DNA of 64,000 bases from contig JAMYFF010000001.1 of NCBI GenBank assembly GCA_024128875.1, positions 682,001 through 746,000 on the forward strand. Direction: 5' to 3'. The DNA comes from Salinilacustrithrix flava (lineage in GTDB: Bacteria; Actinomycetota; Acidimicrobiia; Acidimicrobiales; Salinilacustritrichaceae). A program made the position numbers and the translations under genes. The notes beneath the pieces are model-generated. The model was not told where the DNA came from. It was given only the letters and a program-made list of their open reading frames with translations, and searched no databases. Below, one piece after another: positions 22,688-37,203 of this stretch; the first letter of the stretch is position 1, and each line of letters starts with the position of its first letter.

Positions 22688-22691
22688 CGGA

Positions 22692-23570
22692 TCAACCCGT
22701 GAGTGAGGCCGTCGTGGTCGTTCCCCAGAAGAGGAACGACAGGAGGAGGTTGACCACGACGATCGTCATCATCGAGGTCCGGATGGCCCGCCCGACCGCC
22801 ACGCCCACACCTGCCGGTCCGCCGGAGGCGTTGTAGCCGTACCAGCAGTGGATGAGGACGACCAGCATGGCGAAGACGACGATCTTGATGAGGCTGTACA
22901 GAAGGTCGATCGGGGGCAGGAACAGGTTGAAGTAGTAGTCGTAGACGCCTTGGGCGAGCCCGAGGACACGAACGGTGACGAGCTCGGAGGCGGCGAAGGA
23001 AGCGAAGAGCGAGACGAGGTAGAGGGGGATGATGGCGATGAGGGCGGCGAGGATCCGGGTGGACACGAGATAGGCGATGGGCGGGATGCTCATGACCGAC
23101 AGCGCGTCGATCTCTTCGCTGATCCGCTTCGCTCCGAGCTCGGCGGTGAAGCTCGAACCGACCTGGGCAGCGAGCGCGATGCCGGCGATCATCGGGGTGA
23201 TCTCGCGGACGTTCCCGAGGCTGGTGACGATGCCGGTCAACGACTCGGCGCCGATCGTGCGCAAGCCTTCGTAGGCCTGGACGCCGAGTGTGCCACCGGT
23301 GGCGAGCGACATCGCCGCCACGACGAACACCATGCCCCCGCCCACGACGAACGCGCCCGCACCGGACACGACGTCGGAGACCTGCCGGGCGACCTCCCGG
23401 AGGAAGCGTCTGCGCAGGAGCAGCTCGCTGAACACCGACGCGATGGCTCTGCCCGAGAACAGGACGAAGTCGCCGACCTGGGTGATCGATCCGGAGACGG
23501 ATCTCGGCCACCGACGGAGCGTGCGGGCGGTGCGGGCGAACGGGTTGGAGGGTGCCGCGACGGTGGCCAT
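22692..23570 (-). CDS. YrbEB/MlaE-type ABC permease
   Basis: 292 residues. MlaE-family permease of the Mce importer: a cytoplasmic N-terminus, then about five membrane helices with VVSGAGAFVVGGGMVFVVAA, AAQVGSSFTAELGAKRISEE (the conserved AELGAxRVxEE motif), ALSVMSIPPIAYLVSTRI and a hydrophobic C-terminal pair. It works with YrbEA and an ATPase (MceG/MlaF), which is not encoded in this window. ATG shares one base with the yrbEA stop. Confidence 0.92.
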   Translation of the reverse strand: MATVAAPSNPFARTARTLRRWPRSVSGSITQVGDFVLFSGRAIASVFSELLLRRRFLREVARQVSDVVSGAGAFVVGGGMVFVVAAMSLATGGTLGVQAYEGLRTIGAESLTGIVTSLGNVREITPMIAGIALAAQVGSSFTAELGAKRISEEIDALSVMSIPPIAYLVSTRILAALIAIIPLYLVSLFASFAASELVTVRVLGLAQGVYDYYFNLFLPPIDLLYSLIKIVVFAMLVVLIHCWYGYNASGGPAGVGVAVGRAIRTSMMTIVVVNLLLSFLFWGTTTTASLTG

Positions 23571-24358
23571 CAGATCGACGGAGGGAAGATCGCGAGGTAC
23601 AGGACGGTGATCACGTAGTTGAGGACGAAGACGGCGATGAACGTCTGCACCACGGCGTCGGTCACGCCCTTCCCGACACCGACGGGACCCCGATCGCACG
23701 TCATCCCCCGGTAGCAGGCGATCGAGGCCGCCACGAATCCGAAGACGCCCGCCTTGAACAAGCCGACCAACAGATCGGGGAGGCTGACGAGCGTGGTCGC
23801 CCCGTTGAAGAAGGCGCCAGGAGACACGCCCTGCACCACCACGTTGAAGAAGAAGGCGCCCGCGGTGCCGGCAACGACGACAAGGGAGATGAGGAACACG
23901 GCAACGATGGTCGAGGCCCACAGGCGCGGGGTGACCAACCGGTGCGTCGGATTGACCGACATGACCTCCATCGCGGCCAGTTCGTCGCGGACGTTCCGGG
24001 CGCCCATGTCCGCTGCCATCGCTGAACCGCCGGCACCGGCGATGAGGAGTGCGGTGACGATGGGCGCGACCTGTTGGATCATGCCGGTGACCGCGGCGGC
24101 CCCGGTCAGCGACTGGGCCCCGAGCTGGGCGACGAGCTGTCCCAGCTGCAGCGAGATCACCGCACCGAAGGGAATGGCGACCAGCATGACCGGCAGGATC
24201 GTGACGCTGGCCAGGAAGTCGCACTGATCGAGGAACTCACGCCACCAGCGGCGGACATCCCAGGTGCGCCGGCCGCCCTCGAGTGCGAGCGCCGACATGC
24301 CGCCCAGCGCGTCGAGGAACGCACCGGGCAATCCAAGAAGACGTGGCTGCTGGGCCAT
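23570..24358 (-). CDS. YrbEA/MlaE-type ABC permease, first mce gene
   Basis: 262 residues. MlaE-family permease with LPVMLVAIPFGAVISLQLG, GAGGSAMAADMGARNVRDEL (the AEMGARxVxDE-type motif) and MEVMSVNPTHRLVTPRLWA. It pairs with YrbEB at the inner membrane and begins the nine-gene import operon. The preceding 108 bases hold the promoter and two inverted repeats. Start ATG 24358 follows a GAGGGGGA ribosome-binding site on the minus strand. Confidence 0.92.
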   Translation of the reverse strand: MAQQPRLLGLPGAFLDALGGMSALALEGGRRTWDVRRWWREFLDQCDFLASVTILPVMLVAIPFGAVISLQLGQLVAQLGAQSLTGAAAVTGMIQQVAPIVTALLIAGAGGSAMAADMGARNVRDELAAMEVMSVNPTHRLVTPRLWASTIVAVFLISLVVVAGTAGAFFFNVVVQGVSPGAFFNGATTLVSLPDLLVGLFKAGVFGFVAASIACYRGMTCDRGPVGVGKGVTDAVVQTFIAVFVLNYVITVLYLAIFPPSI

Positions 24359-24380
24359 CTCGACGATCCCCCTCGAACGG

Positions 24381-24394
24381 CAAGAAATGTCTTG
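24381..24394. promoter_or_regulatory. Inverted repeat in the mce promoter
   Basis: CAAGA-AATG-TCTTG lies about 25 bases before yrbEA in an AT-rich patch of the intergenic region. On the minus strand a TTGCAT / TAACAA pair with an 18-base spacer could be the promoter, and the repeat would cover its -10. It is a candidate site for the TetR encoded at the operon's far end. Confidence 0.4.
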
Positions 24395-24440
24395 TTAATC
24401 GCTTTTGCGAGGATGATGCAAGTTTGCAGGGGTGGGAAAT

Positions 24441-24467
24441 ATGTCGGATCCGTTCCTGACCCGACAT
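24441..24467. promoter_or_regulatory. Long inverted repeat between DUF445 gene and mce operon
   Basis: ATGTCGG (24441-24447) and CCGACAT (24461-24467) are perfect 7-bp arms 13 bases apart, ending at the DUF445 stop codon. It may be a second mce operator, or a weak terminator of the DUF445 gene; the AT-rich arms favour an operator. Confidence 0.35.
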
Positions 24468-25681
24468 CACAGGTCGAACGACCGGACCAGCAGCCCCTGG
24501 GCCACGCCGATGAGACCGCCGAGGGCGCCGCCCACCACGATCAGGATCCACTCGTCCTCCTCGAAGATCCCGCGCAGCATCCGTTCGAACCGGGCCTTGT
24601 CCAGCGATCCGAGCCGATCCTCGATCAGCTCGTCGAGCCGCAGGCTCTCGGTCAGGTGCGCCACGACGGTTGGTCGCAGCGTCGGCTCGAGGGCGAGGAG
24701 TCGGTCGAAGAGGACGTCCACCACCTTGCTCAGCTCGTCGTCGGACGGATCGACGCCTCCCGTCACCAGGGCGAGCATCGGGCGGAACTCCGCGAGGCGC
24801 ATGGCGGCCAGCGATCGGAGCTCGGCGTCCGACGCCGACATTCCCGGCCCTTCCACCACGGCAGACACCAGCTTCTCGGGCGTGAAGATCTCGCTCGCGG
24901 TGATCTTGCCGTAGTCGGCTGCGATCTCCCGCTGCCGCTTGGGGAACATCCCCTGGTACGTGACCAACCCGAGGAAGCGGGTCGGCTCGAGGGGGCGGAA
25001 GATCATCTGGATGGCGAGCCAGTTGGTGCCGAGGCCGACGATCCCACCAACGATCGGCATGGTCCACCAGATCCCGAACACCCCGAACAGCGCAGCCTGC
25101 ACCAGCCCGATGCCGAACCCGAACACCGCGCCGTAGATCTCGATGAAGCGCAGCTCGCGGCCGGCGATCTGCCCGGCGACCCGGGCCAGACGGTCGGCGT
25201 TCTCGCCGGTCAGCTCCGCGACGAGGAGCTCGTCGAGATCGAGGACCTCGGGCAACCTGTCGCCAAGCGCCCCGATGAGGCCGTCGACGGACCCGGTGGC
25301 CTGCGCCAGCAGCACCGTCCGCAGCTGCGCTCGAGCCTGGGGGTCCATCGTGTCCCAGATGCCCGGTGCGAGCACGTCGAGGCCCTCGCCGACCACGTCG
25401 TCGAGCAGGTGCTCGTGATCCCGGTGGAGCCGTTCGACGAGGCCGTCGATGTCGACGCGCTCGGCGATGTCGGCCGGCGTGAGCACTTGGCCGGTCGTGC
25501 TGGCGATCTCCCGAGCGAACTTCGGCCCCATGCGGTACACGATCCCGTGCCACCGCAGGGGTCCGATGCCCCGCGGCTCCGCCGGATGGAACATCATCCG
25601 CACCGCGGCCCAGTTCGTCACGTAGCCGATGAACGCCGTCACCGACGGGACGACCACGAACAGCCACACCCGGTCACTCAT
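24467..25681 (-). CDS. DUF445 family membrane protein
   Basis: 404 residues of the DUF445 (YheB/YjiN) family, function unknown. N-terminal membrane segment (WLFVVVPSVTAFIGYVTNW) followed by AVRMMFHPAEP. A central hydrophobic pair (EIYGAVFGFGIGLVQAALFG onward) is followed by a repeat of the first motif (GLGTNWLAIQMIFRPLEP), and a last helix near the C-terminus (LIVVGGALGGLIGVAQGLLV). The internal duplication is characteristic of the family. It is divergent from the catabolic operon and shares its operator region, so the island's TetR may regulate it too. Confidence 0.85.
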   Translation of the reverse strand: MSDRVWLFVVVPSVTAFIGYVTNWAAVRMMFHPAEPRGIGPLRWHGIVYRMGPKFAREIASTTGQVLTPADIAERVDIDGLVERLHRDHEHLLDDVVGEGLDVLAPGIWDTMDPQARAQLRTVLLAQATGSVDGLIGALGDRLPEVLDLDELLVAELTGENADRLARVAGQIAGRELRFIEIYGAVFGFGIGLVQAALFGVFGIWWTMPIVGGIVGLGTNWLAIQMIFRPLEPTRFLGLVTYQGMFPKRQREIAADYGKITASEIFTPEKLVSAVVEGPGMSASDAELRSLAAMRLAEFRPMLALVTGGVDPSDDELSKVVDVLFDRLLALEPTLRPTVVAHLTESLRLDELIEDRLGSLDKARFERMLRGIFEEDEWILIVVGGALGGLIGVAQGLLVRSFDL

Positions 25682-25713
25682 GGCGCTGATCCATGGCCGG
25701 CACGGTACCCATC

Positions 25714-25733
25714 AACTGTACATTCGTCCAGTT
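25714..25733. promoter_or_regulatory. TetR operator copy 1
   Basis: AACTGTACATTCGTCCAGTT is a 20-bp near-perfect palindrome with one mismatched pair. On the minus strand its half-site contains TACAGT, which fits a -10 for the DUF445 gene. It is inverted relative to copy 2, with centres 53 bases apart. Confidence 0.75.
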
Positions 25734-25766
25734 CATCACGTTCCGTGCGACTGCCCGGAGGAGAAG

Positions 25767-25786
25767 AACTGGACGAACGTACAGTA
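25767..25786. promoter_or_regulatory. TetR operator copy 2, with embedded -10
   Basis: AACTGGACGAACGTACAGTA matches copy 1 on the opposite strand at 18 of 20 positions. The hexamer TACAGT (25780-25785) inside it is 8 bases from ATG 25794, so repressor binding would hide the promoter of the acyl-CoA dehydrogenase operon. Confidence 0.75.
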
Positions 25787-25793
25787 CCGCCCT

Positions 25794-26978
25794 ATGGTGC
25801 CCGGCGTGGACTTCGAAGACACACCGGAACAGTCGGTCCTGCGGGAGGAGTTCCGCACCTGGATCGATGACGCGCTGGACCGGCTCGACGGTGATGATCC
25901 GATCGCGCGGGCCAAGGCGTGGCAGGCGGCCAAGTTCGATGCCGGGTTGGCCAAGATCACCTGGGAGCCCGAGCTCGGTGGCCGCAACGGGACGCCCATG
26001 GAGCAGATCATCTTCGGGCAGGAGGAGGCTGCTCGGAAGACGCCGGCCGATCTCTTCACGATCGGGCTCAACTTCGTCGGTCCGACGCTCCGGGTCCACG
26101 GCACGCCGGAGCAGAAGGAGCAGTACCTCCGCCCGCTGCTCCGGGGGGACACGGTGTGGTGCCAGATGTTCTCGGAGCCCAACGCCGGATCGGATTCGGC
26201 GGGCTTGGCGACGCGAGCGGTGCGCGACGGCGACGAGTGGGTCCTGAACGGGCAGAAGGTGTGGACCTCGCACGCCCACTTCGCCGACTACGGCGAGGTG
26301 CTGTGCCGGACGAACCCGGACGCTCCCAAGCACCAGGGGATCACCGCGTTCATCCTCGACCTCCGGACACCTGGCGTCACCGTCCGACCCCTGAAGCAGA
26401 TGACCGGAACGGCCGACTTCAACGAGATCTTCCTCGAGGACGTCCGTGTTCCGCGCCAGAACGTCATCGGCGGCGTCGACGACGGATGGCACGTCGCCGT
26501 GACGACGCTCATGAACGAGCGGACGTCGATCGGAGGCAGCGGTGGATCGAAGCGGAGCACGCTGCCCGCGCGGATGGCGGAGCTCGCCCGTCGTCGCGGG
26601 ACGATGAACGACGTCACGCGTCAGCGGATCGTCGACGTGCACATCCAGGGCGAGCTCCTGCGCTTCCTCGGCATGCGCACGCTCACCGCTGCCCTCCAGG
26701 GGCGACAGCCCGGTCCCGGTGGATCCGTCGCCAAGCTGGGGCTCACCAAGCTCAAGGTCGAGTCCGCAGAGCTCGGCATGCAGCTGCTCGGGCCCGCTGG
26801 CCTCCTGGACGAGGGCGAGGACGCCCGTTGGGTGGCGAAGTTCCTGTGGTCGCCCGGCATGCGCCTCGGCGGAGGTACCGACGAGGTGAACCGCAACATC
26901 GTCGCCGAGCGGGTGCTCGGCCTCCCCGGCGAACCACGCACGGACGACACCTTGCCGTGGAACCAGGTGCCCCGTTGA
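25794..26978 (+). CDS. Acyl-CoA dehydrogenase
   Basis: 394 residues. FAD flavoprotein of the acyl-CoA dehydrogenase fold, introducing a 2,3-double bond into a CoA ester. Seen are PEQSVLREEFRTWIDDAL, WCQMFSEPNAGSDSAGLATR (FAD-binding segment), WVLNGQKVWTSHA, and near the end GGGTDEVNRNIVAERVLGLP. First gene of a five-gene operon. The start is ATG 25794 directly after the operator, read as leaderless; the frame continues upstream across the operator but would lack a promoter. The substrate is likely the ring or side chain handled by the P450s (inference). Confidence 0.9.
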   Translation: MVPGVDFEDTPEQSVLREEFRTWIDDALDRLDGDDPIARAKAWQAAKFDAGLAKITWEPELGGRNGTPMEQIIFGQEEAARKTPADLFTIGLNFVGPTLRVHGTPEQKEQYLRPLLRGDTVWCQMFSEPNAGSDSAGLATRAVRDGDEWVLNGQKVWTSHAHFADYGEVLCRTNPDAPKHQGITAFILDLRTPGVTVRPLKQMTGTADFNEIFLEDVRVPRQNVIGGVDDGWHVAVTTLMNERTSIGGSGGSKRSTLPARMAELARRRGTMNDVTRQRIVDVHIQGELLRFLGMRTLTAALQGRQPGPGGSVAKLGLTKLKVESAELGMQLLGPAGLLDEGEDARWVAKFLWSPGMRLGGGTDEVNRNIVAERVLGLPGEPRTDDTLPWNQVPR

Positions 26979-27012
26979 GAGACAGCCGCCACCCACGACA
27001 GGAGCAGTACCC

Positions 27013-28263
27013 ATGACGGCACCCCAAGCATCCGAAGCCCCAGCGAACGCTGCACGACTCTTCCTTCGTGGCTCGTCCTTCCTCGACCCCGAGGGCTGGC
27101 ATCGCAGCGTCGACGAACTGCGCAGCCCCGAGCCGTTCCTGCCCGTGGATGACCACGTCTACGGGCCCCTGTGGATCGTCACGGACCTGCACGTCCTCCT
27201 CGACGTGTCGCGACGCCCCGCCGAGTTCGCCAACACCGAGGAGCCGGCGCTGCTCGCCACGGCAGGCCTCGCTGGTGATGACAAGGACGAGGTGTGGGGC
27301 CAGCTCAAGATGCTGGTCAACATGGATGGGCCGGATCACCAGGCGCACCGCAAGGTCGTCGTCGACTGGTTCAAGAACTCCACGTTGCGAGTCCTGAAGC
27401 CGGCCGTCGAGGACCTGGTGACCGAGTCGATGGCGCGCTTGCGCGATCTGGACGGGGAGTGCGATTTCGCGACGGAGATCGCCCTCCCGCTCCCTCTCCG
27501 GGTGATCATGTCCATGCTGGGCGTCCCCCGCGAGGACGAGCCGGTGATGCTCAAGCTCACCCAGGAGATGTTCAGCGCCGATGACGATGAGCTGGGGAGC
27601 AGTGACCCGCTCGCCGCCATCCACGAGGTCGCTGGCTACCTCATGGACATGATGAGGGACCGGAAGGACAACCCCACCGACGACCTCTGCTCGGCGATCG
27701 TCCACGGCGTGGTGGACGGCACGTCGATCGAGACCATGGCTGCGCTCGGCCTGCACGTGATCATCGCGACTGCGGGCCACGACACCACGTCGTTCGCCAT
27801 GTCGGGCGGTGTTGAAGCGCTGTGCCGCTTCCCCGATGAGTTCCAGCGGCTGCGTGCGGACCCGTCGCTCGTGGACAACGCTGCTCACGAAGTCGTCCGG
27901 CTCACCTCCCCGGTGCGGCACTTCCTCCGCCACACCCAGGCCGACGCCGAGGTCGCTGGCCAAGCCTTTGCCCCGGGCGATCGAATCCTCCTGTCATATC
28001 CGGCGGCGAACCGAGATCCTGCGGTCTTCGACGACCCCCACCGCCTCGACGTCGGCCGATCCAACGCCAACCGCCAGATCGGATGGGGTCACGGCCCGCA
28101 CTTCTGCCTGGGCGCGCGTCTCGCCCAGATGGAGGTGGCCGCCATCCTCAACGGACTGGCCCGCGAAGTCACCTCGATCGAGGCGACCGGTCCGGCGGCG
28201 TGGACCAAGGCGCACTTCGTCGGCGGCGCCAAGCACGTCCCGGTCCGCGGCGCGTTCGCATGA
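27013..28263 (+). CDS. Cytochrome P450 (first paralogue)
   Basis: 416 residues. Soluble bacterial P450 that hydroxylates a hydrophobic substrate with electrons from a ferredoxin, not encoded nearby. I-helix ATAGHDTTS, K-helix EVVR, and heme loop GWGHGPHFCLGARLA with Cys365 as iron ligand; the usual loop Phe is Trp. It is closely related (roughly three quarters identical by eye over the middle) to the P450 at 34711-35958. Its stop overlaps the next gene's ATG, so it is translationally coupled to the crotonase. Confidence 0.93.
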   Translation: MTAPQASEAPANAARLFLRGSSFLDPEGWHRSVDELRSPEPFLPVDDHVYGPLWIVTDLHVLLDVSRRPAEFANTEEPALLATAGLAGDDKDEVWGQLKMLVNMDGPDHQAHRKVVVDWFKNSTLRVLKPAVEDLVTESMARLRDLDGECDFATEIALPLPLRVIMSMLGVPREDEPVMLKLTQEMFSADDDELGSSDPLAAIHEVAGYLMDMMRDRKDNPTDDLCSAIVHGVVDGTSIETMAALGLHVIIATAGHDTTSFAMSGGVEALCRFPDEFQRLRADPSLVDNAAHEVVRLTSPVRHFLRHTQADAEVAGQAFAPGDRILLSYPAANRDPAVFDDPHRLDVGRSNANRQIGWGHGPHFCLGARLAQMEVAAILNGLAREVTSIEATGPAAWTKAHFVGGAKHVPVRGAFA

Positions 28264-29021
28264 GCGATGCGAGCCGCGTGCTCACGATCGAGCACCGCGA
28301 CGGCGTGGACTGGCTCACGCTCAACCGTCCGCGGAAGCACAACGCGCTCGACCCGGCCCTCATCGGCGGACTGTGCGACTACTTCGCGGCGGTCGCCGAC
28401 CGTGACGACGTGCGCGTGGTCGTCGTGCGCGGCAACGGCCCGTCCTTCTGCGCTGGACTCGACCTCGCTGCGCACCTGGCGAGCGGCGGCAAGGAGACGC
28501 AACGGATCGTCGAGCTGATGCCCCTCATGCGGGCCTGTCCGCAGCCGGTGATCGCGCTGCTCCACGGTGCGGTCAAAGGTGGCGGCTTCGTCATGGGCCT
28601 GGCCAGCGACATCCGCATCGCCGGGGAGAGCGCACGCATGGACGAGACGTTCATCAACCTCGGCCTCAGCGGTTGCGACGTCGGGATCACCTACTTCCTC
28701 CCCCGCCTGGTCGGGCTCTCGCTGGCGTCGGAGCTCATGCTCACCGGACGTGCCATCGACGCCTGGCGCGCCGAGCGCCTCGGACTGGTGTCCGAGGTGG
28801 TTGCCGATGACGACCTCGAATCCGCAGCCACCGCCCTCGCCGAAGAGCTGTGCGGGAAGTCCGCCCTCGGGCTGCGGCGAACCAAGGAGATGCTCAACCG
28901 AGCCTTCACCTTCGACGACCTGACGGAGGTCATCCAGACGGAGCTGGCCATCCAGCTCGAGGTCCAGCGTGACGATCCGGCGTTCCGGGCTCGCCTCGCG
29001 TCCTACGGAGCCAAGACGTGA
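28260..29021 (+). CDS. Enoyl-CoA hydratase/isomerase (crotonase)
   Basis: 253 residues. Crotonase fold: LTLNRPRKHNALD, VVVRGNGPSFCAGLDL (first oxyanion-hole segment), ALLHGAVKGGGFVMGLASDI (second), and ETFINLGLSGCDVGITYFLP. The second Glu usual in hydratases is not obvious at the SGCD segment, so an isomerase or hydrolase activity is possible. ATG 28260 overlaps the P450 stop (ATGA), and the next gene overlaps its own stop (GTGA). Confidence 0.87.
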   Translation: MSDASRVLTIEHRDGVDWLTLNRPRKHNALDPALIGGLCDYFAAVADRDDVRVVVVRGNGPSFCAGLDLAAHLASGGKETQRIVELMPLMRACPQPVIALLHGAVKGGGFVMGLASDIRIAGESARMDETFINLGLSGCDVGITYFLPRLVGLSLASELMLTGRAIDAWRAERLGLVSEVVADDDLESAATALAEELCGKSALGLRRTKEMLNRAFTFDDLTEVIQTELAIQLEVQRDDPAFRARLASYGAKT

Positions 29022-30064
29022 AGGTCGACCTCGGTGCCACCGTCCGCCCGGCTCAGGCGGCAGATCTGGCCCGGAGGACCGAGGCAGCGGGGTTCGACGC
29101 GCTGTGGGCAGCGGAGACGAACCACGACCCGTTCCTGTCCTGTGCGCTGGCCGCGGCGTCGACCGAGTCGATCGAGATCGGCACCGCGATCGCGATCGCC
29201 TTCGCCAGATCGCCGATGACCCTGGCCAACACGGCCCATGACCTGCAGGAGCTGAGCGGCGGGCGGTTCGTGCTCGGCCTCGGCAGCCAGATCCGACCCC
29301 ACATCGAGAAGCGCTACTCCATGCCCTGGTCGCACCCGGCCCGACGGATGCGCGAGTTCATCCAGGCGCTGCGCGCCATCTGGGACACGTGGGAGCACGG
29401 CACCCCGCTCGAGTTCGAGGGCGAGTTCTACCGGCACACGCTCATGCCCCCGATGTTCACGCCCCGCGCCCATGGGCACGGGGCGCCCAAGGTGTTCCTC
29501 GCCGGCGTCGGCCCCCGGATGACCGAGGTCGCAGGTGAGGTGGCCGACGGGTTCATCTGCCACGGCTTCTCGTCCGAGCGCTACCTCCGGGAGCGGACGC
29601 TGCCCGCCCTCGCGCGGGGGTGCGAGCGCGCCGGCCGGAGCGTGGACGACCTCGAGATCGTGGCACCGGGCTTCGTGGTGACCGGTGTCGACGACGAGGC
29701 CATCGAGAGGGCGAAGCGGGCAACGCGACGTCAGATGGCGTTCTACGGGTCCACCCCCGCCTACCGACCCGTGCTCGAGCTCCACGGTTGGGGAGACCTC
29801 CAGGCCGAGCTGCACGCCATGTCCAAGGACGGCGCGTGGGAGCGCATGGGCGCGCTCATCACCGACGAGATCCTCGAGACGTTCGCCGTGGTCGGTCGCC
29901 CCGAAGACATCGGTCCCGAGCTCCACCGACGCTACGGCGACATCGCCAACCGAGTGACCAGCTACGAGCGACCGAACGCCGGACCGGCAGTGAACGCCTG
30001 GACCGCCATCGCCCACACCCTGCGCCAACCCGACCCCACAGCGACGGAGAGAGCCCACCGATGA
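29018..30064 (+). CDS. LLM-class F420-type oxidoreductase
   Basis: 348 residues. Luciferase-like barrel (MKVDLGATVRPAQAADLA, GFDALWAAETNHDPFLS, IEIGTAIAIAFARSPMTLAN, SGGRFVLGLGSQIRPHIEKR) resembling an actinobacterial F420-dependent subfamily common in lipid-catabolic clusters. The GTG start overlaps the previous stop. Probable role: a reduction or oxygenation step in the island's pathway; the precise reaction is unknown. Confidence 0.87.
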   Translation: MKVDLGATVRPAQAADLARRTEAAGFDALWAAETNHDPFLSCALAAASTESIEIGTAIAIAFARSPMTLANTAHDLQELSGGRFVLGLGSQIRPHIEKRYSMPWSHPARRMREFIQALRAIWDTWEHGTPLEFEGEFYRHTLMPPMFTPRAHGHGAPKVFLAGVGPRMTEVAGEVADGFICHGFSSERYLRERTLPALARGCERAGRSVDDLEIVAPGFVVTGVDDEAIERAKRATRRQMAFYGSTPAYRPVLELHGWGDLQAELHAMSKDGAWERMGALITDEILETFAVVGRPEDIGPELHRRYGDIANRVTSYERPNAGPAVNAWTAIAHTLRQPDPTATERAHR

Positions 30065-31056
30065 CCGAAGACAACGAGATGCAGACCACCCGCCCCGGCG
30101 CCTCGCACCGCATGGTGAAGTGGTCACCCCCGTACCGCAAGGAGAACGTCGAGCTCCCCGAGTTCGACCTCATCGACATCGAGCGCGACGGACCGATCGG
30201 GCGCATCGTGCTCAACAGTCCGGAGAAGCGGAACCCGCTCGGCTACGAGCGCCTGCTCCAGATCGAGATGGCGGCCAAGCTCCTCGAGCTCGACGAGGAG
30301 ATCCGAGTGATCATCATCAAGGGCGAGGGACCTTCGTTCTGCGCCGGCTACGACATGGCGCCGGCCAAGAAGGGCGAGCGGCAGCGGAACATGCCCGGGG
30401 GCGGCTACATCCACCCCGAGCGGGACCGGCTGTGGCAGTCCTACGACCTCGAGCACGCCCGCGTGTACTTCACGCTGTTCGACCTCCAGAAGCCGGTCAT
30501 CGCCCAGATCCACGGCCACTGCCTCGCCGGCGGAACCGAGCTGGCCGGGTTCTGCGACCTGCGCGTCGTCGCCGACGACGCCAAGATCGGCTGGCCCGTC
30601 GGACGCAACTGGTCGCCGGGCAACCTCCAGTACATGCCGTGGCTCGTGGGCATGACCAAGGCCAAGTACTACATGTTCACCTGCGAGCCGATGAGCGGCA
30701 AGGAGGCGGCCGAGTGCCAGTGGGCCTCCGAATCGGTGCCTGCCGATGAGCTCGAAGCACGGACCGAGGAGCTGGCGGCCCAGATCGCGCTCACGCCCAC
30801 CGATCTCATCATGCTCACCAAGCGGAGCATCAACCGCCAGTTCGAGATCATGGGCTTCCGCACCGGCATCGCGGCGAGTGTCGACCTGCTCGCCGTCGCC
30901 AGCTTCCGTGAGCAGGGCCTCTACGCCAAGCGCGACGAGAAGACGGGCGAATCCGGAGACGAGTTCATGAAGCGTGCCGAGCGCGACGGCCTCAAGGCGG
31001 CGATGGCGTGGCGGGAAGAGACGTTCGGCAACCGCTACCACGAAAGCGATGACTGA
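30061..31056 (+). CDS. Enoyl-CoA hydratase/isomerase family protein, long form
   Basis: 331 residues, longer than a usual crotonase because of a 35-residue N-terminal lead (HRMVKWSPPYRKENVELPEF) and an extended C-terminus rich in charged residues. Crotonase signatures: IVLNSPEKRNPLGYERL, IIIKGEGPSFCAGYDMAPAK, AQIHGHCLAGGTELAGFCDL and WPVGRNWSPGNLQYMPWLVG. Probably hydrates or rearranges a bulky enoyl-CoA. ATG 30061 overlaps the preceding stop. Last gene of the first operon; the next gene has its own promoter and operator. Confidence 0.87.
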   Translation: MTEDNEMQTTRPGASHRMVKWSPPYRKENVELPEFDLIDIERDGPIGRIVLNSPEKRNPLGYERLLQIEMAAKLLELDEEIRVIIIKGEGPSFCAGYDMAPAKKGERQRNMPGGGYIHPERDRLWQSYDLEHARVYFTLFDLQKPVIAQIHGHCLAGGTELAGFCDLRVVADDAKIGWPVGRNWSPGNLQYMPWLVGMTKAKYYMFTCEPMSGKEAAECQWASESVPADELEARTEELAAQIALTPTDLIMLTKRSINRQFEIMGFRTGIAASVDLLAVASFREQGLYAKRDEKTGESGDEFMKRAERDGLKAAMAWREETFGNRYHESDD

Positions 31057-31102
31057 GATGGCAGGCGATCAGCATCGAGGACGAGTAGCCCGCGTCACGA
31101 GT

Positions 31103-31122
31103 TAATGTACAAGTGTCCAGTT
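31103..31122. promoter_or_regulatory. TetR operator copy 3
   Basis: TAATGTACAAGTGTCCAGTT: the right half-site is identical to copy 1 and the left half is degenerate at two positions. It ends 7 bases before the -10 hexamer at 31130, so it covers the -35 and spacer region of the amidohydrolase promoter. Confidence 0.65.
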
Positions 31123-31129
31123 CATCCGT

Positions 31130-31135
31130 TAAGGT
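31130..31135 (+). promoter_or_regulatory. -10 element for amidohydrolase gene
   Basis: TAAGGT would start transcription near 31142 and give a leader of about 45 bases with GGAGC before ATG 31187. Confidence 0.45.
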
Positions 31136-31186
31136 CTTCCAGACCAGACCTCGTCCGGCCACTGACCGAAACGATCGGAGCACCCG

Positions 31187-32386
31187 ATGACCACCCCGCC
31201 GATGCCCATGTTCGATGCCGACAACCACTACTACGAGGCTCGGGACGCGTTCACCCGGCACCTGCCTCGAGAGTTCAAGAACCGAGGGCCCGTCTGGGTG
31301 ACGCTCGAGAACGGCCACCAGCGCCAGATGATCCGTGGCAAGGTCGACTGGCAGGTCCCCAACCCGACCTACGACCCGATCTCCAAGCCCGGCGTGCTGC
31401 GCGAGTACTACAAGGGCAACCCGAACAACAAGAGCTTCGCCGAGCTCATCCGCTCCAACCTCGAGCCGCTCCCTGCGGCCTACCAGGACAGCGCGGCGCG
31501 TCTCGCGCTGATGGACGAACAGGGGGTCGACGCGGCGTGGCTCTTCCCCACGACCGCCGTCCACTACGAGGAGGTGCTCAAGCACGACATCGAGGCCAAC
31601 GTCGCAGTGCACCGGGCGTTCAACCGCTGGCTGGAGGAGGACTGGGGCTTCGCCAACCAGAACCGGATCTTCGCCGCTCCGTACATGACGCTGGCCGATC
31701 CCGACGAGGCATGCGCCGAGCTCGACTACGTCACCGATCAGGGCGCGCGGGTCGTCGTCATGCGACCGGCACCGATCACCACCAAGGACGGACAGCGCTC
31801 GCCGGGCGATGAGGTGTTCGACGGGTTCTGGCAACGGGTGAGCGACGCCGGCATCGTCGTCGTGGCCCACGTCGGCAACTCGGGCTACGGCGCCAACGGC
31901 TACCCGGCGTCGGGCGGAGCCGAGGCGGCCCTGGGCGGTGGGCGCAAGCCCACCAACGCGGTGTGGAAGATGGAACGGGCGATCTGCGACTGGCTGTCCG
32001 CTCTCGTCTTCGACCGGGTCTTCGAACGGTTCCCCGGCGTGCGGGTCGCCTCGGTCGAGAACGGTGCCGTCTACCTCCACGACGTCTTCCGCCAGCTGGC
32101 GGCCGTCCGGGAGAAGTACCAGAACTGGTTCCAGGACGACCCGGTCGAGACCTTCAAGCAGCACGTGTGGATCAACCCGTTCTGGGAGGACGACATCGAC
32201 GACGTCGTCGAGTTCATGGGTACCGACCGCGTGCTGTTCGGCTCGGACTTCCCCCACATGGAGGGCCTCGAGTTCCCGGCCCAGATCTTCGACGAGATCG
32301 GCCATCTGGCGGAGGCCGATCAGCGCAGGATCGTCCACGACAACGCCGCAGAGCTCACCGGCGTGCGCACCCTCGCCTCGGCCTGA
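31187..32386 (+). CDS. Amidohydrolase family protein (Amidohydro_2)
   Basis: 399 residues. Metal-dependent TIM barrel of the ACMSD/resorcylate-decarboxylase branch, whose members hydrolyse or decarboxylate small cyclic acids. The first metal motif is MFDADNHYYE (residues 5-14). Later landmarks are AWLFPTTAVHYEEVL, VVVAHVGNSGYGANGYP, RVASVENGAVY and LFGSDFPHMEGLEFP with the catalytic Asp. Related proteins accompany P450 and CoA genes in other actinobacteria, so ring opening or decarboxylation within the pathway is plausible. 13 bases before the CoA ligase. Confidence 0.87.
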   Translation: MTTPPMPMFDADNHYYEARDAFTRHLPREFKNRGPVWVTLENGHQRQMIRGKVDWQVPNPTYDPISKPGVLREYYKGNPNNKSFAELIRSNLEPLPAAYQDSAARLALMDEQGVDAAWLFPTTAVHYEEVLKHDIEANVAVHRAFNRWLEEDWGFANQNRIFAAPYMTLADPDEACAELDYVTDQGARVVVMRPAPITTKDGQRSPGDEVFDGFWQRVSDAGIVVVAHVGNSGYGANGYPASGGAEAALGGGRKPTNAVWKMERAICDWLSALVFDRVFERFPGVRVASVENGAVYLHDVFRQLAAVREKYQNWFQDDPVETFKQHVWINPFWEDDIDDVVEFMGTDRVLFGSDFPHMEGLEFPAQIFDEIGHLAEADQRRIVHDNAAELTGVRTLASA

Positions 32387-32399
32387 GCGATACCTCTCG

Positions 32400-33947
32400 A
32401 TGCCCGAGACCCACCATGAGGGAGCCGAGGACGTGCTCCGCCGGCACGGCGACCGGCTGGCCGCCGTGCTGTCCGGTTCCGGCGAGACGCGGACCTATGC
32501 CGAGCTCGACGAACGCTCGACCCGGTTGGCTCGCCACTTCGATCGGGCCGGGCTCGCGCCGGGCGACCACGTCGCCGTGCTCCTGCGGAACCAGCTCGAG
32601 TACGTCGACGTCATCTGGGCTTCCCTCCGGGCCGGCTTGTACCTCACGCCGATCAACTGGCACCTCGGACCTGACGAGGCCGGCTACATCGTCGAGGACT
32701 GCGGGGCCACGGCCCTGGTGACCGCTGCGGACATGGCCGAGGTCGTCGACGGGTGGTCGCAGCACCTCCGGCGACTCGACATCCGGCTCTCGGTCGGCGC
32801 CGGCATCGACGGCTTCGCCGATTTCGAGGAGGCCCTGTCGGCCAGCGACCCGACGCCCCGCGAGGGGGAACGGGAAGGTCAGCTGATGCTCTACTCGTCG
32901 GGCACGACGGGCCGACCCAAGGGCATCCTCCCACCGCTCCCGAGGTCGCCGTTCGGCCAGGCGAAGGGTGGCATCACGCCGGTGGCCAGGGGCCTCTACG
33001 GCATGGACGCCTCCTCCGTGTACCTGAGTCCAGCACCGATGTACCACGCCGCCCCGCTGGGGTGGACGATCGCCGCCCATCGTCTCGGCGCGACCGTGGT
33101 GATCATGGAGCGCTTCGATGGCGCCGAGGCGCTCGATGCCATCGAACGGCACCGGGTCACCCACGCGCAGTTCGTGCCGACCCACTTCGTACGCATGCTG
33201 CGGCTGCCCGAGGAGGTGCGGTCACGGGCGGACCTGTCGTCGCTCCAGAAGGTCATCCACGCCGCCGCCCCCTGCCCGGTCCCCGTCAAGCAGCAGATGA
33301 TCGACTGGGTCGGGCCGATCGTGGACGAGTACTACGGCGGCTCCGAGGGCTTCGGCTTCTGCAACATCACCGCCCACGAGTGGCTCGAGCATCCGGGCTC
33401 GGTGGGCCGTTCCATGCTCGGCGCCGTCCACATCGTCGGCGAGGACGGCACCGACGTCGGTCCGGGCGAGACCGGGCAGGTCTGGTTCGAGGCCGCCGGG
33501 CGGTTCGAGTACCACAACGACCCGGCCAAGACCCGCAGGGCAACCGATCCACGGGGATGGGCCACCTACGGCGACATCGGCCACGTCGACGACGACGGCT
33601 ACCTGCATCTGACGGACCGGGCCTCGAACATGATCATCTCGGGCGGGGTCAACATCTACCCCCAGGAAGCCGAGAACGTCCTGACCGTCCACCCGGACGT
33701 CCACGACGTCGCGGTCCTCGGGGTGCCCGATCCCGAGATGGGCGAGCGCGTGAAGGCCTTCGTCGTCGCGGTGAACGCCCCGGATGATCCCGATCGCCTC
33801 GCGGCCGAGCTCATCGAGCACTGCCGCGACGAGCTCGCCCACTACAAGTGTCCCCGCGAGCTGGTCTTCGTCGACGAGCTCCCACGCCTCGAGAGCGGCA
33901 AGCTCCTCAAGCGCCGCCTGCTCGAGGAGATCGAGGTGGCGACGTGA
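32400..33947 (+). CDS. Acyl-CoA synthetase (AMP-binding)
   Basis: 515 residues. ANL-superfamily ligase forming acyl-adenylate and then acyl-CoA. P-loop MLYSSGTTGRPKG (near residue 162), YYGGSEGFGFCN, TYGDIGHVDDDGYLHLTDRA, GGVNIYPQEAENVL, and the C-terminal lysine in LESGKLLKRRLLE. It would prime the pathway's acid for beta-oxidation-like steps. ATG 32400 is chosen because the AMP-ligase domain begins just after it; the open frame upstream overlaps the amidohydrolase. Confidence 0.92.
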   Translation: MPETHHEGAEDVLRRHGDRLAAVLSGSGETRTYAELDERSTRLARHFDRAGLAPGDHVAVLLRNQLEYVDVIWASLRAGLYLTPINWHLGPDEAGYIVEDCGATALVTAADMAEVVDGWSQHLRRLDIRLSVGAGIDGFADFEEALSASDPTPREGEREGQLMLYSSGTTGRPKGILPPLPRSPFGQAKGGITPVARGLYGMDASSVYLSPAPMYHAAPLGWTIAAHRLGATVVIMERFDGAEALDAIERHRVTHAQFVPTHFVRMLRLPEEVRSRADLSSLQKVIHAAAPCPVPVKQQMIDWVGPIVDEYYGGSEGFGFCNITAHEWLEHPGSVGRSMLGAVHIVGEDGTDVGPGETGQVWFEAAGRFEYHNDPAKTRRATDPRGWATYGDIGHVDDDGYLHLTDRASNMIISGGVNIYPQEAENVLTVHPDVHDVAVLGVPDPEMGERVKAFVVAVNAPDDPDRLAAELIEHCRDELAHYKCPRELVFVDELPRLESGKLLKRRLLEEIEVAT

Positions 33948-33977
33948 CGAGCTCCGCGATCGACGAACCTGAGGGCC

Positions 33978-33992
33978 GCCGGGGACGCCGGC
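33978..33992. terminator. Hairpin between convergent ligase and tetR genes
   Basis: GCCGG-GGACG-CCGGC, a 5-bp stem in the 53-base convergent gap. Small, with no T-tract; probably a weak bidirectional terminator. Confidence 0.3.
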
Positions 33993-34000
33993 CTGGACGG

Positions 34001-34654
34001 TCAATCCTCCATGTGGGTCATGCCGGCGACGATCATGTCGATCAGCTGCTCGACCTGCGGGTTCAGCGGCTCACCTGTGCGTGGCGGCGCGAACCCGAGG
34101 CGCGACGCGAGGCCCTCGAAGGTGAACGGGCTGAACGCAGCGCCGAACACGAAGACGCCGAGCACGCGGAGGTCGACCGTCGAGGGGATCTCGCGGGTCA
34201 CGTCCGCGTACTCGAAGATCGCTTGCGAGATCGGTTCGATGACGTCGTCGTAGATCTGGTCGAACCGGGGGCCACCCCGCAGCGCCTCTGCCAGGAAGAG
34301 GCGGAACGCGTCCGGGTGCGACGCGGCCTCCACCATGAGCAGCTCCAACCCGGCGCGAAGCGTCGGACGCAGCGGCCGGGCCTCGCCGACGTCGAACATC
34401 TCCACGATGCGCGCCGCCGCCGGCTCCAGACCGTGGCGGACCGCGGCTCGCCACAGGTCCTCCTTCGAACCGAAGTAGTGGCGCACCAGGTTGTGGCCCA
34501 CGCCGACCGCACCGGTGATCTCGCGGATCGACGCCCCTTCGAAGCCACGCTCGGCGAAGGCACGGAGCGCCGCGTCGAGCAGCGCCGCCTTCGTCTTGTC
34601 GGCATCGGCCCCTGGCGGTCGACCGAGCCGCCTCTCAGGCAATTTATTGGACAT
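34001..34654 (-). CDS. TetR regulator, presumed repressor of the catabolic island
   Basis: 217 residues. Helix-turn-helix: KTKAALLDAALRAFAERGFE, GASIREITGAVGVGHNLVRH and YFGSKEDLWRAAV; the remainder is the helical ligand-binding domain. Its own ATG lies inside operator copy 4, with TAAACT ending 6 bases upstream, so it looks leaderless and autorepressed. The same operator occurs at the two other promoter regions of the island, making this the natural candidate to bind it. A CoA ester or hydroxylated intermediate could be the inducer (inference). Confidence 0.9.
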   Translation of the reverse strand: MSNKLPERRLGRPPGADADKTKAALLDAALRAFAERGFEGASIREITGAVGVGHNLVRHYFGSKEDLWRAAVRHGLEPAAARIVEMFDVGEARPLRPTLRAGLELLMVEAASHPDAFRLFLAEALRGGPRFDQIYDDVIEPISQAIFEYADVTREIPSTVDLRVLGVFVFGAAFSPFTFEGLASRLGFAPPRTGEPLNPQVEQLIDMIVAGMTHMED

Positions 34655-34664
34655 TCGTACAGTT
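34645..34664. promoter_or_regulatory. TetR operator copy 4, divergent tetR/P450
   Basis: TATTGGACATTCGTACAGTT. It contains TACAGT (34658-34663) as -10 for the P450 on the plus strand. It also overlaps TAAACT (34661-34666) and the start codon of tetR on the minus strand. One bound repressor would block both directions. Confidence 0.75.
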
Positions 34665-34710
34665 TAACCCAGCGGTTCCGCCCCCGGCGCCCGCTCCACA
34701 GGAGTCTTCC

Positions 34711-35958
34711 ATGAGCACCACCGATGAGACCACAACCCGCACCGATCCCGGTCCGCTGTTCACCGACGGCGCCACCTTCCTCGACGTCGAGCGCTGGCAC
34801 CGTGCCGTCGACGAGCTGCGCGGTCAGGGGCCGTTCGTCCGCTTCGACGACGACGTCCACGGGACGATCTGGGCCACGGTCGACCTCGAGGTGCTCCTCG
34901 AGGTGTCCCGCCGCCCGGGGGAGTTCGCCAACACGACGGTGCCGCTGCTCCCCCCGAAGCTGGGAGCCGACGGTCCGGACATCAACGAGGTCGGTGCCCA
35001 GCTCAAGATGCTGATCAACCAGGACGGGCCGGACCACCTCGCGCACCGCAAGCTGGTCGTCGAGTGGTTCAAGAACTCCACCCTTCGCGTCCTGAAGCCC
35101 GCCGTGGACGAGCTGGTCGCCGAGTCGATGACGCGGTTGCGCGAGATCGGAGGCGAGTGCGACTTCTCGTCCGAGGTGGCGCTCCCGCTGCCCCTGCGGG
35201 TGATCATGTCGATGATGGGCGTGCCCCGGGAGGACGAGCCGGTCCTGCTGAAGCTGACCCAGGAGATGTTCAGCTCGGAGGACGACGAGCTCGGGCAGGG
35301 TGACCCGTTCGCGGCGATGATGGAGGTCGCCGGCTACTTCACCGAACTGATGCAGGATCGGCAGGCCAACCCCACCGACGACCTGTCCTCGGCCATCGCC
35401 AACGGCGTGGTCGACGGCACGCCGCTCGAGACCATGTCGGCGATCGGCTTGTACGTGATCATCGCCACCGCCGGTCACGACACGACGTCGTTCGCAATGG
35501 CTGGCGGCGTCGACGCGCTGGCGCGGTTCCCGGACCAGTTCGATCGCCTGCGCTCGAAGCCAGACCTGGTCCAGAACGCGGCGTACGAAGTCGTTCGGCT
35601 CACCTCGCCGGTCCGCCACTTCCTTCGACATGCCCAGACCGATGCCGAGGTGGCAGGTCACGTCTTCGCTCCCGGCGACCGAGTTCTCCTGTCGTATCCG
35701 GGCGCCAACCGCGACCCGGGCCTGTTCGACGACCCGCACTCGCTCGACGTCAACCGATCGAACGCCAGCCGCCAGGTCGGCTGGGGCCACGGAGCGCACT
35801 TCTGCCTCGGGTCCAGGCTGGCCCACATGGAGGTCTCCGCCGTCCTCGACGGTCTTCGCCGCGAGTTCACCTCGATCGAGCTGACCGGGCCGACCGAGTG
35901 GACGAAGTCGCACTTCGTCGGCGGCGCCAAGCACGTTCCCGTCCGCTTGGGTATCTGA
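34711..35958 (+). CDS. Cytochrome P450 (second paralogue)
   Basis: 415 residues. Same architecture as the P450 at 27013-28263: I-helix ATAGHDTTS, K-helix EVVR, heme loop GWGHGAHFCLGSRLA with Cys365. Extended blocks such as WFKNSTLRVLKPAV and PLRVIMSM are identical in both, indicating duplication within the pathway. CAGGAG precedes ATG 34711. Its TGA shares a base with the next ATG. The two enzymes may act on successive oxidation states or on different substrates of one route. Confidence 0.93.
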   Translation: MSTTDETTTRTDPGPLFTDGATFLDVERWHRAVDELRGQGPFVRFDDDVHGTIWATVDLEVLLEVSRRPGEFANTTVPLLPPKLGADGPDINEVGAQLKMLINQDGPDHLAHRKLVVEWFKNSTLRVLKPAVDELVAESMTRLREIGGECDFSSEVALPLPLRVIMSMMGVPREDEPVLLKLTQEMFSSEDDELGQGDPFAAMMEVAGYFTELMQDRQANPTDDLSSAIANGVVDGTPLETMSAIGLYVIIATAGHDTTSFAMAGGVDALARFPDQFDRLRSKPDLVQNAAYEVVRLTSPVRHFLRHAQTDAEVAGHVFAPGDRVLLSYPGANRDPGLFDDPHSLDVNRSNASRQVGWGHGAHFCLGSRLAHMEVSAVLDGLRREFTSIELTGPTEWTKSHFVGGAKHVPVRLGI

Positions 35959-36413
35959 TGAGCGTCCGCATGGACCAGGACGAGGCGTGGGCGTTCCTCG
36001 AGCGCGGCCACACTGCGATCCTGACGACATTGCGGCGCGATGGCTGGCCGGTCTCGCTCCCACTCTGGTACGTCGTCGAGGACCGTGCGATCTACGTCGC
36101 CACGCCAGAGCGCAGCAAGAAGGTGTCGCGCATCCGCAACGACGACCGAGCCTGCCTCGTGGTGGAGCAGGGCCAGCAGTGGGCTGAGCTCGCCGCAGTC
36201 GAGTTGCCCGTCAGGGCGACGATCCTGGAACCCGGCGCCGAGGCCGATCGCGCCGGAGCGCTGTTCGCTGACAAGTACGCAGCCTTTCGACCCGCGCCAT
36301 CCCGGATGCCCAAGGCCACCACGAAGCACTACCAAGGTCAGGTCGTGATCCGGCTCGATCCTGTCGGTCGACTCCTGAGCTGGGACAACGCCAAGCTCCG
36401 TCTGCACGGCTGA
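35958..36413 (+). CDS. PPOX-class split-barrel flavin/F420 protein
   Basis: 151 residues. Pyridoxamine-phosphate-oxidase-like fold: FLERGHTAILTTLRRDGWPV, LPLWYVVEDRAIYVATPERS, KKVSRIRNDDRACLVVEQG. Actinobacterial members commonly bind F420 or FMN, and some are reductases of small organic substrates. ATG 35958 overlaps the P450 stop (TGATG), so the pair is coupled; the protein could serve the P450's product or handle electrons, but this is not shown by sequence. Confidence 0.82.
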   Translation: MSVRMDQDEAWAFLERGHTAILTTLRRDGWPVSLPLWYVVEDRAIYVATPERSKKVSRIRNDDRACLVVEQGQQWAELAAVELPVRATILEPGAEADRAGALFADKYAAFRPAPSRMPKATTKHYQGQVVIRLDPVGRLLSWDNAKLRLHG

Positions 36414-36418
36414 ACCTT

Positions 36419-36461
36419 CTGGGCCGCGGTACGCGCATCAGAGGCGTGCGCCGCTGCCCAG
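36419..36461. terminator. Bidirectional hairpin between PPOX and tetR genes
   Basis: CTGGGCCGCGG (36419-36429) and the arm TGCGCCGCTGCCCAG (36447-36461) pair over most of their length with one mismatch and a small bulge. Placed between convergent genes. The remaining 68 bases to the tetR stop show nothing distinct. Confidence 0.5.
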
Positions 36462-36529
36462 TTGCCATCCGCTCGGCCTCGCCCTGCACGAGATCCGCTG
36501 AAGGAGCTGCGGTCCGGTTCCCTGCGTCA

Positions 36530-37123
36530 TCACCGAGCGAGCCCAGCGCCGAGCCGATCGAAGGCGTCCTGCACGAGCGTCGGCAGCTCCACCGCCTGCG
36601 GGGCGGTGAGCCAGTGCTGGAGCGAGGCGCGCATGACCGCCACGGCGGTGGCCGCGAGCAGGCGGGGTGTCGGGTCGCTGGCGGCGGCGCCCATCCGGGT
36701 GGCGAGGTGCGCAGCGAGGGTGTGCTCCCAGCCCGCCTGGAGCTGGAGGCTCCGGGCCTGGACTGACGGGGTGGTCGCCATGATGCCGAAGCGCCGGGCG
36801 AGGCGGTCGACCTCCGTCGCGTAGTCGGACGCGACCGCAGCGAAGGCTGCTCGCAGCGCGCGCCACGTCGGCTCGTCCGCCGGTCGCTGGTCGAGCTCCT
36901 CGAGGATGCGGCCGAGGCGGTCGGCGTAGTCGGCGATGACCACGTCGTCCTTGGTCTCGAAGTAGGAGAAGAACGTCCTCGGTGCGATCTCGGCGGCGGC
37001 GGCGATCTGCTCGATCGTGGTCGCGTCGAACCCCTGCTGCTCGAACAGCTCGACGGCGACGTCCTCGATCTGGCGGCGGCGGTCGCGCTTCTTGCGCTCC
37101 CGCAGGCCGATGGTCTCCGACAT
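36530..37123 (-). CDS. TetR regulator of the MMPL exporter
   Basis: 197 residues. Helix-turn-helix RRRQIEDVAVELFEQQGFD, ATTIEQIAAAAEIAPRTFFS and YFETKDDVV, of the kind seen in AcrR-like repressors of pumps; helical sensor domain after residue 60. It is divergent from mmpL across an 80-base promoter region carrying a perfect 15-bp palindrome, so it most likely represses mmpL and perhaps itself. Inducer unknown. Confidence 0.9.
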   Translation of the reverse strand: MSETIGLRERKKRDRRRQIEDVAVELFEQQGFDATTIEQIAAAAEIAPRTFFSYFETKDDVVIADYADRLGRILEELDQRPADEPTWRALRAAFAAVASDYATEVDRLARRFGIMATTPSVQARSLQLQAGWEHTLAAHLATRMGAAASDPTPRLLAATAVAVMRASLQHWLTAPQAVELPTLVQDAFDRLGAGLAR

Positions 37124-37155
37124 GTCCGCATCGTAGCCAGTAAAAGATGCGGTGG

Positions 37156-37185
37156 TTGCAAGATTGCAGTGGCTGCAATTATGGT
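37156..37185 (+). promoter_or_regulatory. mmpL promoter with operator in the spacer
   Basis: TTGCAA (37156-37161) and TATGGT (37180-37185) form a -35/-10 pair with an 18-base spacer. Within the spacer, TTGCAG-TGG-CTGCAA (37164-37178) is a perfect palindrome, the expected binding site of the divergent TetR. GGAGG precedes ATG 37204. Confidence 0.6.
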
Positions 37186-37203
37186 GGGAACCGGAGGTCG
37201 ATC

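Follow-up and report, generated by a model that had tools for sequence, protein, structure and literature searches.

A predicted TetR operator in the control regions of a P450/acyl-CoA gene island of Salinilacustrithrix flava

The gene island and its operator-like sites

The window analysed here is a stretch of 64,000 nucleotides from Salinilacustrithrix flava (assembly GCA_024128875.1, contig JAMYFF010000001.1, positions 682,001 to 746,000 of the forward strand), and our subject is an island of cytochrome P450 and acyl-CoA genes within it, whose control regions carry four related 20-bp quasi-palindromes (S1 to S4) that are likely operators of the TetR-family regulator encoded in the island. 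The first unit, on the plus strand, comprises an acyl-CoA dehydrogenase (25794–26978), a cytochrome P450 (P450 (a), 27013–28263), an enoyl-CoA hydratase/isomerase (28260–29021), an F420-dependent LLM oxidoreductase (29018–30064; TIGR03617, 491.9 bits against a cut-off of 278.15) and a second enoyl-CoA hydratase/isomerase (30061–31056). It is followed on the same strand by an amidohydrolase (31187–32386; PF04909), whose best solved-structure match is 4dzi and which also weakly matches PtmU3 and DitZ, and by a FadD4-like acyl-CoA ligase (32400–33947), which scores 643.9 bits, under the model cut-off of 850. The tetR gene (34001–34654) lies on the minus strand, and beyond it are a second P450 (P450 (b), 34711–35958, plus strand), 72% identical to P450 (a), and a PPOX-type oxidoreductase of the PNPOx fold (35958–36413, plus strand). 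The starts of the two hydratase/isomerases, the ligase and the PPOX-type protein were read from the frame. The best sequence matches of P450 (b) among solved P450s are 3tkt and P450terp, both of which we take to be CYP108 enzymes, and then CYP125-type chains, a weak hint that the substrate is terpenoid- or steroid-like. The two P450s sit in two separate units, each with a predicted operator, and neither a ferredoxin nor a reductase partner turned up among the called island genes.

S1 (AACTGTACATTCGTCCAGTT, 25714–25733, plus strand) lies between a DUF445 gene on the minus strand (24467–25681) and the acyl-CoA dehydrogenase, and S2 (AACTGGACGAACGTACAGTA, 25767–25786, core on the minus strand) is centred 53 bp away, about five helical turns, which would align the two sites along one face of the helix. 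S3 (TAATGTACAAGTGTCCAGTT, 31103–31122, plus strand) starts with TAATGT and is located upstream of the amidohydrolase and CoA-ligase genes, while S4 (TATTGGACATTCGTACAGTT, 34645–34664, core on the minus strand) is centred on the start codon of tetR (34654–34652). S1 to S4 are located in all three intergenic control regions of the island; these regions, their gene content and the placing of one site over the tetR start codon are as the preliminary description of this DNA had given them. That description had the positions of the sites right as well, and it treated all four as the same 20-bp palindrome, which is true only of S1: against AACTGNAC-N4-GTNCAGTT, S1 has no mismatch and the other sites have 1, 2 and 2, and the invariant part is a 14-bp core, TGTAC-N4-GTCCA, found twice on each strand. 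Read in a single orientation, S1 is AACTGTAC-ATTC-GTCCAGTT, S2 (minus strand) is TACTGTAC-GTTC-GTCCAGTT, S3 is TAATGTAC-AAGT-GTCCAGTT and S4 (minus strand) is AACTGTAC-GAAT-GTCCAATA, so that each site holds at least one perfect AACTGKAC half. Each also pairs one T half with one G half, an asymmetry to which no meaning was attached, its chance with four sites being about 1/8 to 1/16.

Rarity of the core sequence

The genome scanned comprises 4,095,387 bases in 28 contigs and is 97% complete. The exact core occurs in it at five places, all inside 9 kb of the island (the four control-region sites and one at 33019), versus one place for the reversed control; the looser TGKAC-N4-GTMCA occurs at seven places, five of them in the island, versus five per strand for its reversed control. 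In the window, the 20-mer at up to three mismatches gives six matches, namely S1 to S4 together with 25596 and 52694 (three mismatches each), where the shuffle mean is 0.62 and none of 100 shuffles reached six. The earlier statement that the palindrome appears nowhere else in the window is therefore nearly right, the exceptions being these two weaker matches and the exact core at 33019–33032. Because the core had been derived from the sites themselves, all gapped 5+5-mers (gaps of 0 to 12) in the three control regions were also counted against dinucleotide shuffles. The top word, TGGAC-N4-GTACA, has four copies, a number that none of 500 shuffles reached, and three copies were reached by 1 of 500.

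The fifth exact core (TGTACCTGAGTCCA, 33019–33032, plus strand) falls within the CoA-ligase gene, where it reads in frame as GTG-TAC-CTG-AGT-CCA and uses rare codons (AGT for 5 of 140 Ser and CCA for 11 of 205 Pro in eight window genes). From three background matches in about 8.3 Mb of two genomes of the same genus, we estimate a chance of about 0.3% that a background core falls within any particular 9 kb. This core may be an intragenic operator, possibly acting as a roadblock, or a coding coincidence.

The rarity of the core bears on whether S1 to S4 are shared promoter elements or chance repeats to which no TetR protein binds. The half GTACAGT does include a TANNNT hexamer, and promoters read by a single sigma factor can resemble one another; a promoter element would, however, be expected to recur throughout the genome, which the exact core does not, and neither a palindromic layout nor a fixed N4 spacing is a promoter feature. 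We regard this explanation as extremely improbable.

The TetR protein, its start codon and the promoter layout

The likely binder of the sites is the 217-residue product of tetR, which matches PF00440 with 51.1 bits (cut-off 24) and contains a TetR_N helix-turn-helix and an all-helical ligand domain. In an AF2 model with a predicted local distance difference test score (pLDDT) of 88.6, the fold is that of a plain TetR-family protein and gives no pointer to the ligand; reading a ligand from the fold neighbours was dropped, as RutR, HlyIIR, CecR, FadR and FasR all lie within about 1.5 Z. A KstR2 chain weakly matches the protein (E 6.2e-7, residues 19–136), and its scores with the AcuR model (29.5 bits, cut-off 247) and with the model of the mycofactocin regulator MftR (29.4 bits, cut-off 224.9) stay below the cut-offs. 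Across an alignment of 16 sequences, the most distant at about 50% identity, the region of the recognition helix hardly varies.

As S4 is centred on the start codon, ATGTCCAAT doubles as predicted operator and as the Met-Ser-Asn codons of tetR, the predicted operator GAATGTCCAAT covering ATG-TCC-AAT. N-termini were compared across the top 41 sequences from the protein search (P0001–P0041, at least 73% identity, own sequence included), with one truncated entry dropped; Ser stands at residue 2 in 39 of the remaining 40 and Asn at residue 3 in all 40, while residues 4 to 8 are variable. Since residues 1 to 11 are left as an unstructured tail in the model (pLDDT below 50), a reason at the protein level for the fixed Ser-Asn is not obvious. 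The constancy of Met-Ser-Asn is what an operator lying on the start codon would require, and it supports such an operator indirectly.

The tetR gene lacks a ribosome-binding site and has TAAACT 6 nt before its ATG (34661–34666, minus strand), overlapping S4. Likewise, the acyl-CoA dehydrogenase gene lacks a ribosome-binding site and has TACAGT 8 nt before its ATG (25780–25785, plus strand), inside S2. Given the missing ribosome-binding sites and these TANNNT positions, both genes are probably leaderless, the two hexamers being the predicted −10 elements, and leaderless promoters would account for operators that touch or cover start codons. In mycobacteria, nearly one in four transcripts is leaderless (PMC4633059). 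Elsewhere, the minus strand of S1 carries TACAGT (25715–25720) 33 nt before the DUF445 ATG, the plus strand of S4 carries TACAGT (34658–34663) facing P450 (b), and S3 carries TAATGT; the hexamers of P450 (b) and the amidohydrolase lie farther upstream of their genes, both of which have a ribosome-binding site. Next to S1, a 12-codon minus-strand frame (ATGGGTACC..., 25674–25712) begins 2 nt after TACAGT and overlaps the DUF445 start with its end; it may be a leader peptide or chance.

All four sites overlap TANNNT hexamers that point towards a regulated gene (TACAGT in S1 minus, S2 plus and S4 plus; TAATGT in S3 plus; TAAACT in S4 minus), and a TetR dimer, predicted to bind each quasi-palindrome, would therefore block RNA polymerase on both sides of the divergent pairs. 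By analogy with KstR2, FadR and MftR, the repressor would be released by an intermediate of the pathway, probably an acyl-CoA formed by the FadD4-like ligase. That the protein binds S1 to S4 and mainly activates, or acts in both ways, would fit the fact that some TetR-family members are activators, as FasR, one of the fold neighbours, is called in NCBIfam. A protein on these sites would, however, cover predicted −10 elements and a start codon and so stand in the way of polymerase, and we consider a mainly activating or dual role very unlikely.

Relatives, rival regulators and the weighing of the evidence

Linkage in relatives was judged by a proxy, the shared size of the longest contig between homologues, with the best 120 matches of each protein search listed. 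By this measure, 24 of the 70 TetR sequences of at least 46% identity among the matches listed (own included) share a contig size with one of the first 78 P450 matches, which amounts to 24 of 45 for contigs of at least 2.6 kb (own included), while only 1 of the 50 more distant TetRs listed does so. Two genus-mates, with genomes 79% and 93% complete, served as controls. They have no TetR ortholog and no P450 of this type, for which reason the island seems accessory in the genus, and they hold one and two exact cores. Wider searches gave no close counterpart: a scan of 358 relatives with six short peptide patterns (best 80 kept) returned no ortholog, the best segments being 24–58% identical over parts of the protein; a TetR search of 148 relatives, of 397, 330 and 354 genomes of the order and of 395 genomes of the class (overlapping draws) found at best 36 and 39% identity outside the own genome; a P450 search of 359 genomes of the order at E 1e-100 found none above 47% outside it; and viral contigs held no TetR ortholog, plasmids only distant TetRs of less than 60% identity.

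The palindromic site stands in the predicted promoter of the regulator gene and at the adjacent operons and is rare elsewhere, as would be expected of a local autorepressor regulon. We therefore propose, with a probability of roughly 0.8, that S1 to S4 are operators of the protein encoded at 34001–34654, predicted to repress the tetR gene itself along with the P450/acyl-CoA operons around it. The single-TetR regulon that the preliminary description had put forward is to this extent upheld at the level of sequence, by the restriction of the exact core to the island, the position of S4 on the start codon, the equal-sized contigs of TetR and P450 homologues and the few cores in the genus-mates that lack the TetR.

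Another regulator could in principle bind S1 to S4, such as the MftR-type TetR at 36530–37123, the TetR-like protein at 15020–15670 or an unlinked protein, seeing that two more TetR-type genes flank the island and that the TetR query has 15 matches in the genome, itself included. TetR repressors usually control themselves, and S4 lies on the start codon of the 34001–34654 gene, whose close homologues keep Met-Ser-Asn and share contig sizes with P450s; no exact core is present near either of the other two genes. Binding by another regulator is in our view unlikely. The second TetR gene (36530–37123), with an MftR-type C-terminal domain, is divergent from an MMPL transporter gene (37147–39408), 23 bp apart by open reading frame coordinates, and is itself probably leaderless, with TACGAT 6 nt before its ATG and no ribosome-binding site.

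Several findings weigh against the assignment of S1 to S4 to this TetR. The core was picked after the sites had been seen, and among 300 triples of stretches drawn at random from elsewhere in the window, 8 hold a 5+5 word at least four times; since natural sequence can also yield four-copy gapped words, weight was placed on genome-wide rarity. The preliminary description had held that a motif scattered over hundreds of unrelated places would speak against a regulon: the exact core is not scattered, but a loose 17-mer with two mismatches is, with 70 forward and 84 reverse matches genome-wide versus 118 and 128 for its control, and as these are fewer than in the control, such degenerate matching is uninformative. 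Conservation of the operator between species is read indirectly from protein N-termini, and only 8 of the next 29 homologues listed (P0042–P0070, at most 66% identity except for two fragments; counted by eye) start with Met- or Val-Ser-Asn, several of the 29 having other start calls. The two distant TetR homologues of 36 and 39% identity have no core within 1.5 kb. Contig-size matching is a proxy, in which one coincidence (size 2331) was seen. On the promoter side, a sigma-70 scan of 24300–37300 predicted no promoters, further TANNNT hexamers occur upstream of DUF445 (20, 94 and 99 nt), the dehydrogenase (69 nt) and the amidohydrolase (51 nt), and three of the five named hexamers belong to the operator half GTACAGT.

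Known operators and the extent of the regulon

The S1 to S4 operator matches none of the published motifs compared (KstR, KstR2, BkaR, MftR, AcuR and the full 15-bp Thermus FadR operator). The claim that the motif is unlike those of KstR, KstR2 and FadR is borne out in this comparison, although one half-site comes close. In Thermus thermophilus, FadR has the half-site TTGGAC...GTCCAA, or TTkkACYsRGTMYAA as derived from its promoters (PMC5597230), which is the nearest of the motifs compared to the CTGkAC...GTmCAG of the island; as a further likeness, the predicted targets of Thermus FadR are fatty-acid genes. The spacer between AC and GT, however, is 3 bp in the Thermus operator and 4 bp in the island sites, and each island site mismatches 5 of the 12 fixed positions of the 15-bp consensus TTRNACYNRGTNYAA. 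Among the sequence matches listed, no Thermus FadR chain was recognised.

Other known systems resemble the layout predicted for the island and differ in motif. AcuR of Rhodobacter sphaeroides is a TetR-family autorepressor with a leaderless transcript starting at its own AUG and an operator over the promoter (PMC3017554), an arrangement that the island tetR, with no ribosome-binding site and a TANNNT 6 nt before the ATG, may share; its operator, TAATAGAC-n6-GTCTATTA, is unrelated (7–10 of 16 positions mismatched at the island sites), and AcuR serves acrylate metabolism. KstR and KstR2 of mycobacteria are TetR repressors with palindromic sites over lipid and steroid catabolic operons (PMC1995591, PMC3068626), and the KstR motif partly overlaps the −10 element (PMC1995591), but the island sites mismatch 3–4 of 8 positions of the KstR motif TnnAACnnGTTnnA and 4–5 of 10 of the KstR2 motif AnCAAGnnCTTGnT. 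The mycobacterial BkaR, a local TetR repressor, is like the island in having a divergent pair with two operator copies and one nearby site (PMC3920632), whereas its motif, GTTA(N)T(N4)A(N)TAAC, is mismatched at 3–5 of 10 positions and it controls branched-chain keto-acid genes. The MftR operator, T-N2-GGCA-N5-TGCC-N2-A, is mismatched at 5–6 of 10 positions. Among the open-licence papers searched, none had a title dealing with an operator or regulon of this sort in Acidimicrobiia, consistent with the description of the island as undescribed.

The regulon may extend to the left of S1. The DUF445 membrane protein (24467–25681, minus strand) is a plausible member, as the centre of S1 lies some 42 bp upstream of its ATG and TACAGT points towards it, and contig-level linkage supports its inclusion: five of nine DUF445 homologues of at least 78% identity, Actinospongicola halichondriae among them, are on a contig of the same size as that of a TetR or P450 homologue (by eye). 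The genome of A. halichondriae (CP171622, PMC12263773) encodes a TetR 85% identical and a DUF445 protein 79% identical to those of the window. In the other 111 DUF445 matches listed, size 37225 recurs for a TetR and also for a P450, and size 2331 for a P450, the latter necessarily a coincidence because both genes do not fit. Behind DUF445, on the same strand, comes an eight-gene mce set (two MlaE permeases and six MCE proteins, 16315–24358), a possible member. We tentatively suggest, at somewhat less than even odds, that both DUF445 and the entire mce importer are under the control of S1 as well, so that uptake and breakdown would be switched together. No terminator-like site between DUF445 and the mce set was found in a scan, and in the two genus-mates, where the DUF445 ortholog is 59–62% identical, no counterpart of the window's mce proteins lies near it in the stretches read (a whole contig of 14.4 kb and 20 of 43 kb); those contigs also lack the exact core. 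Conversely, the 108-bp gap between DUF445 and the first mce gene may hold a promoter of its own, and the mce cluster has the weak TetR-like gene (15020–15670) at its far end. The DUF445 ortholog has a ribosome-binding sequence in the one genus-mate whose upstream DNA was read. In one genus-mate, a divergent acyl-CoA dehydrogenase gene, whose product is 39% identical to that of the island, lies about 1.1 kb from the DUF445 ortholog.

Taken together, a more far-reaching picture can be drawn, which we consider doubtful as a whole: the 20-bp word would serve at once as a leaderless −10 element (through its GTACAGT-type half), as operator and, in tetR, as start and first codons that dictate Met-Ser-Asn across the close family, with S1 also governing the mce importer, the 33019 site acting as a roadblock, and uptake, activation and P450 oxidation of one lipid falling under a single regulator. 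Control of this type is common, and the overlap of operator and start codon is a moderate surprise. Overall, TGTAC-N4-GTCCA is a ready candidate operator for this TetR clade (about 70 relatives of at least 46% identity among the matches listed). It would tie two paralogous P450s, an F420-dependent LLM oxidoreductase, a PPOX-type protein, an amidohydrolase and a FadD4-like ligase, perhaps together with an mce importer, into one predicted pathway, and with its ligand in hand it might be of use as a sensor part.

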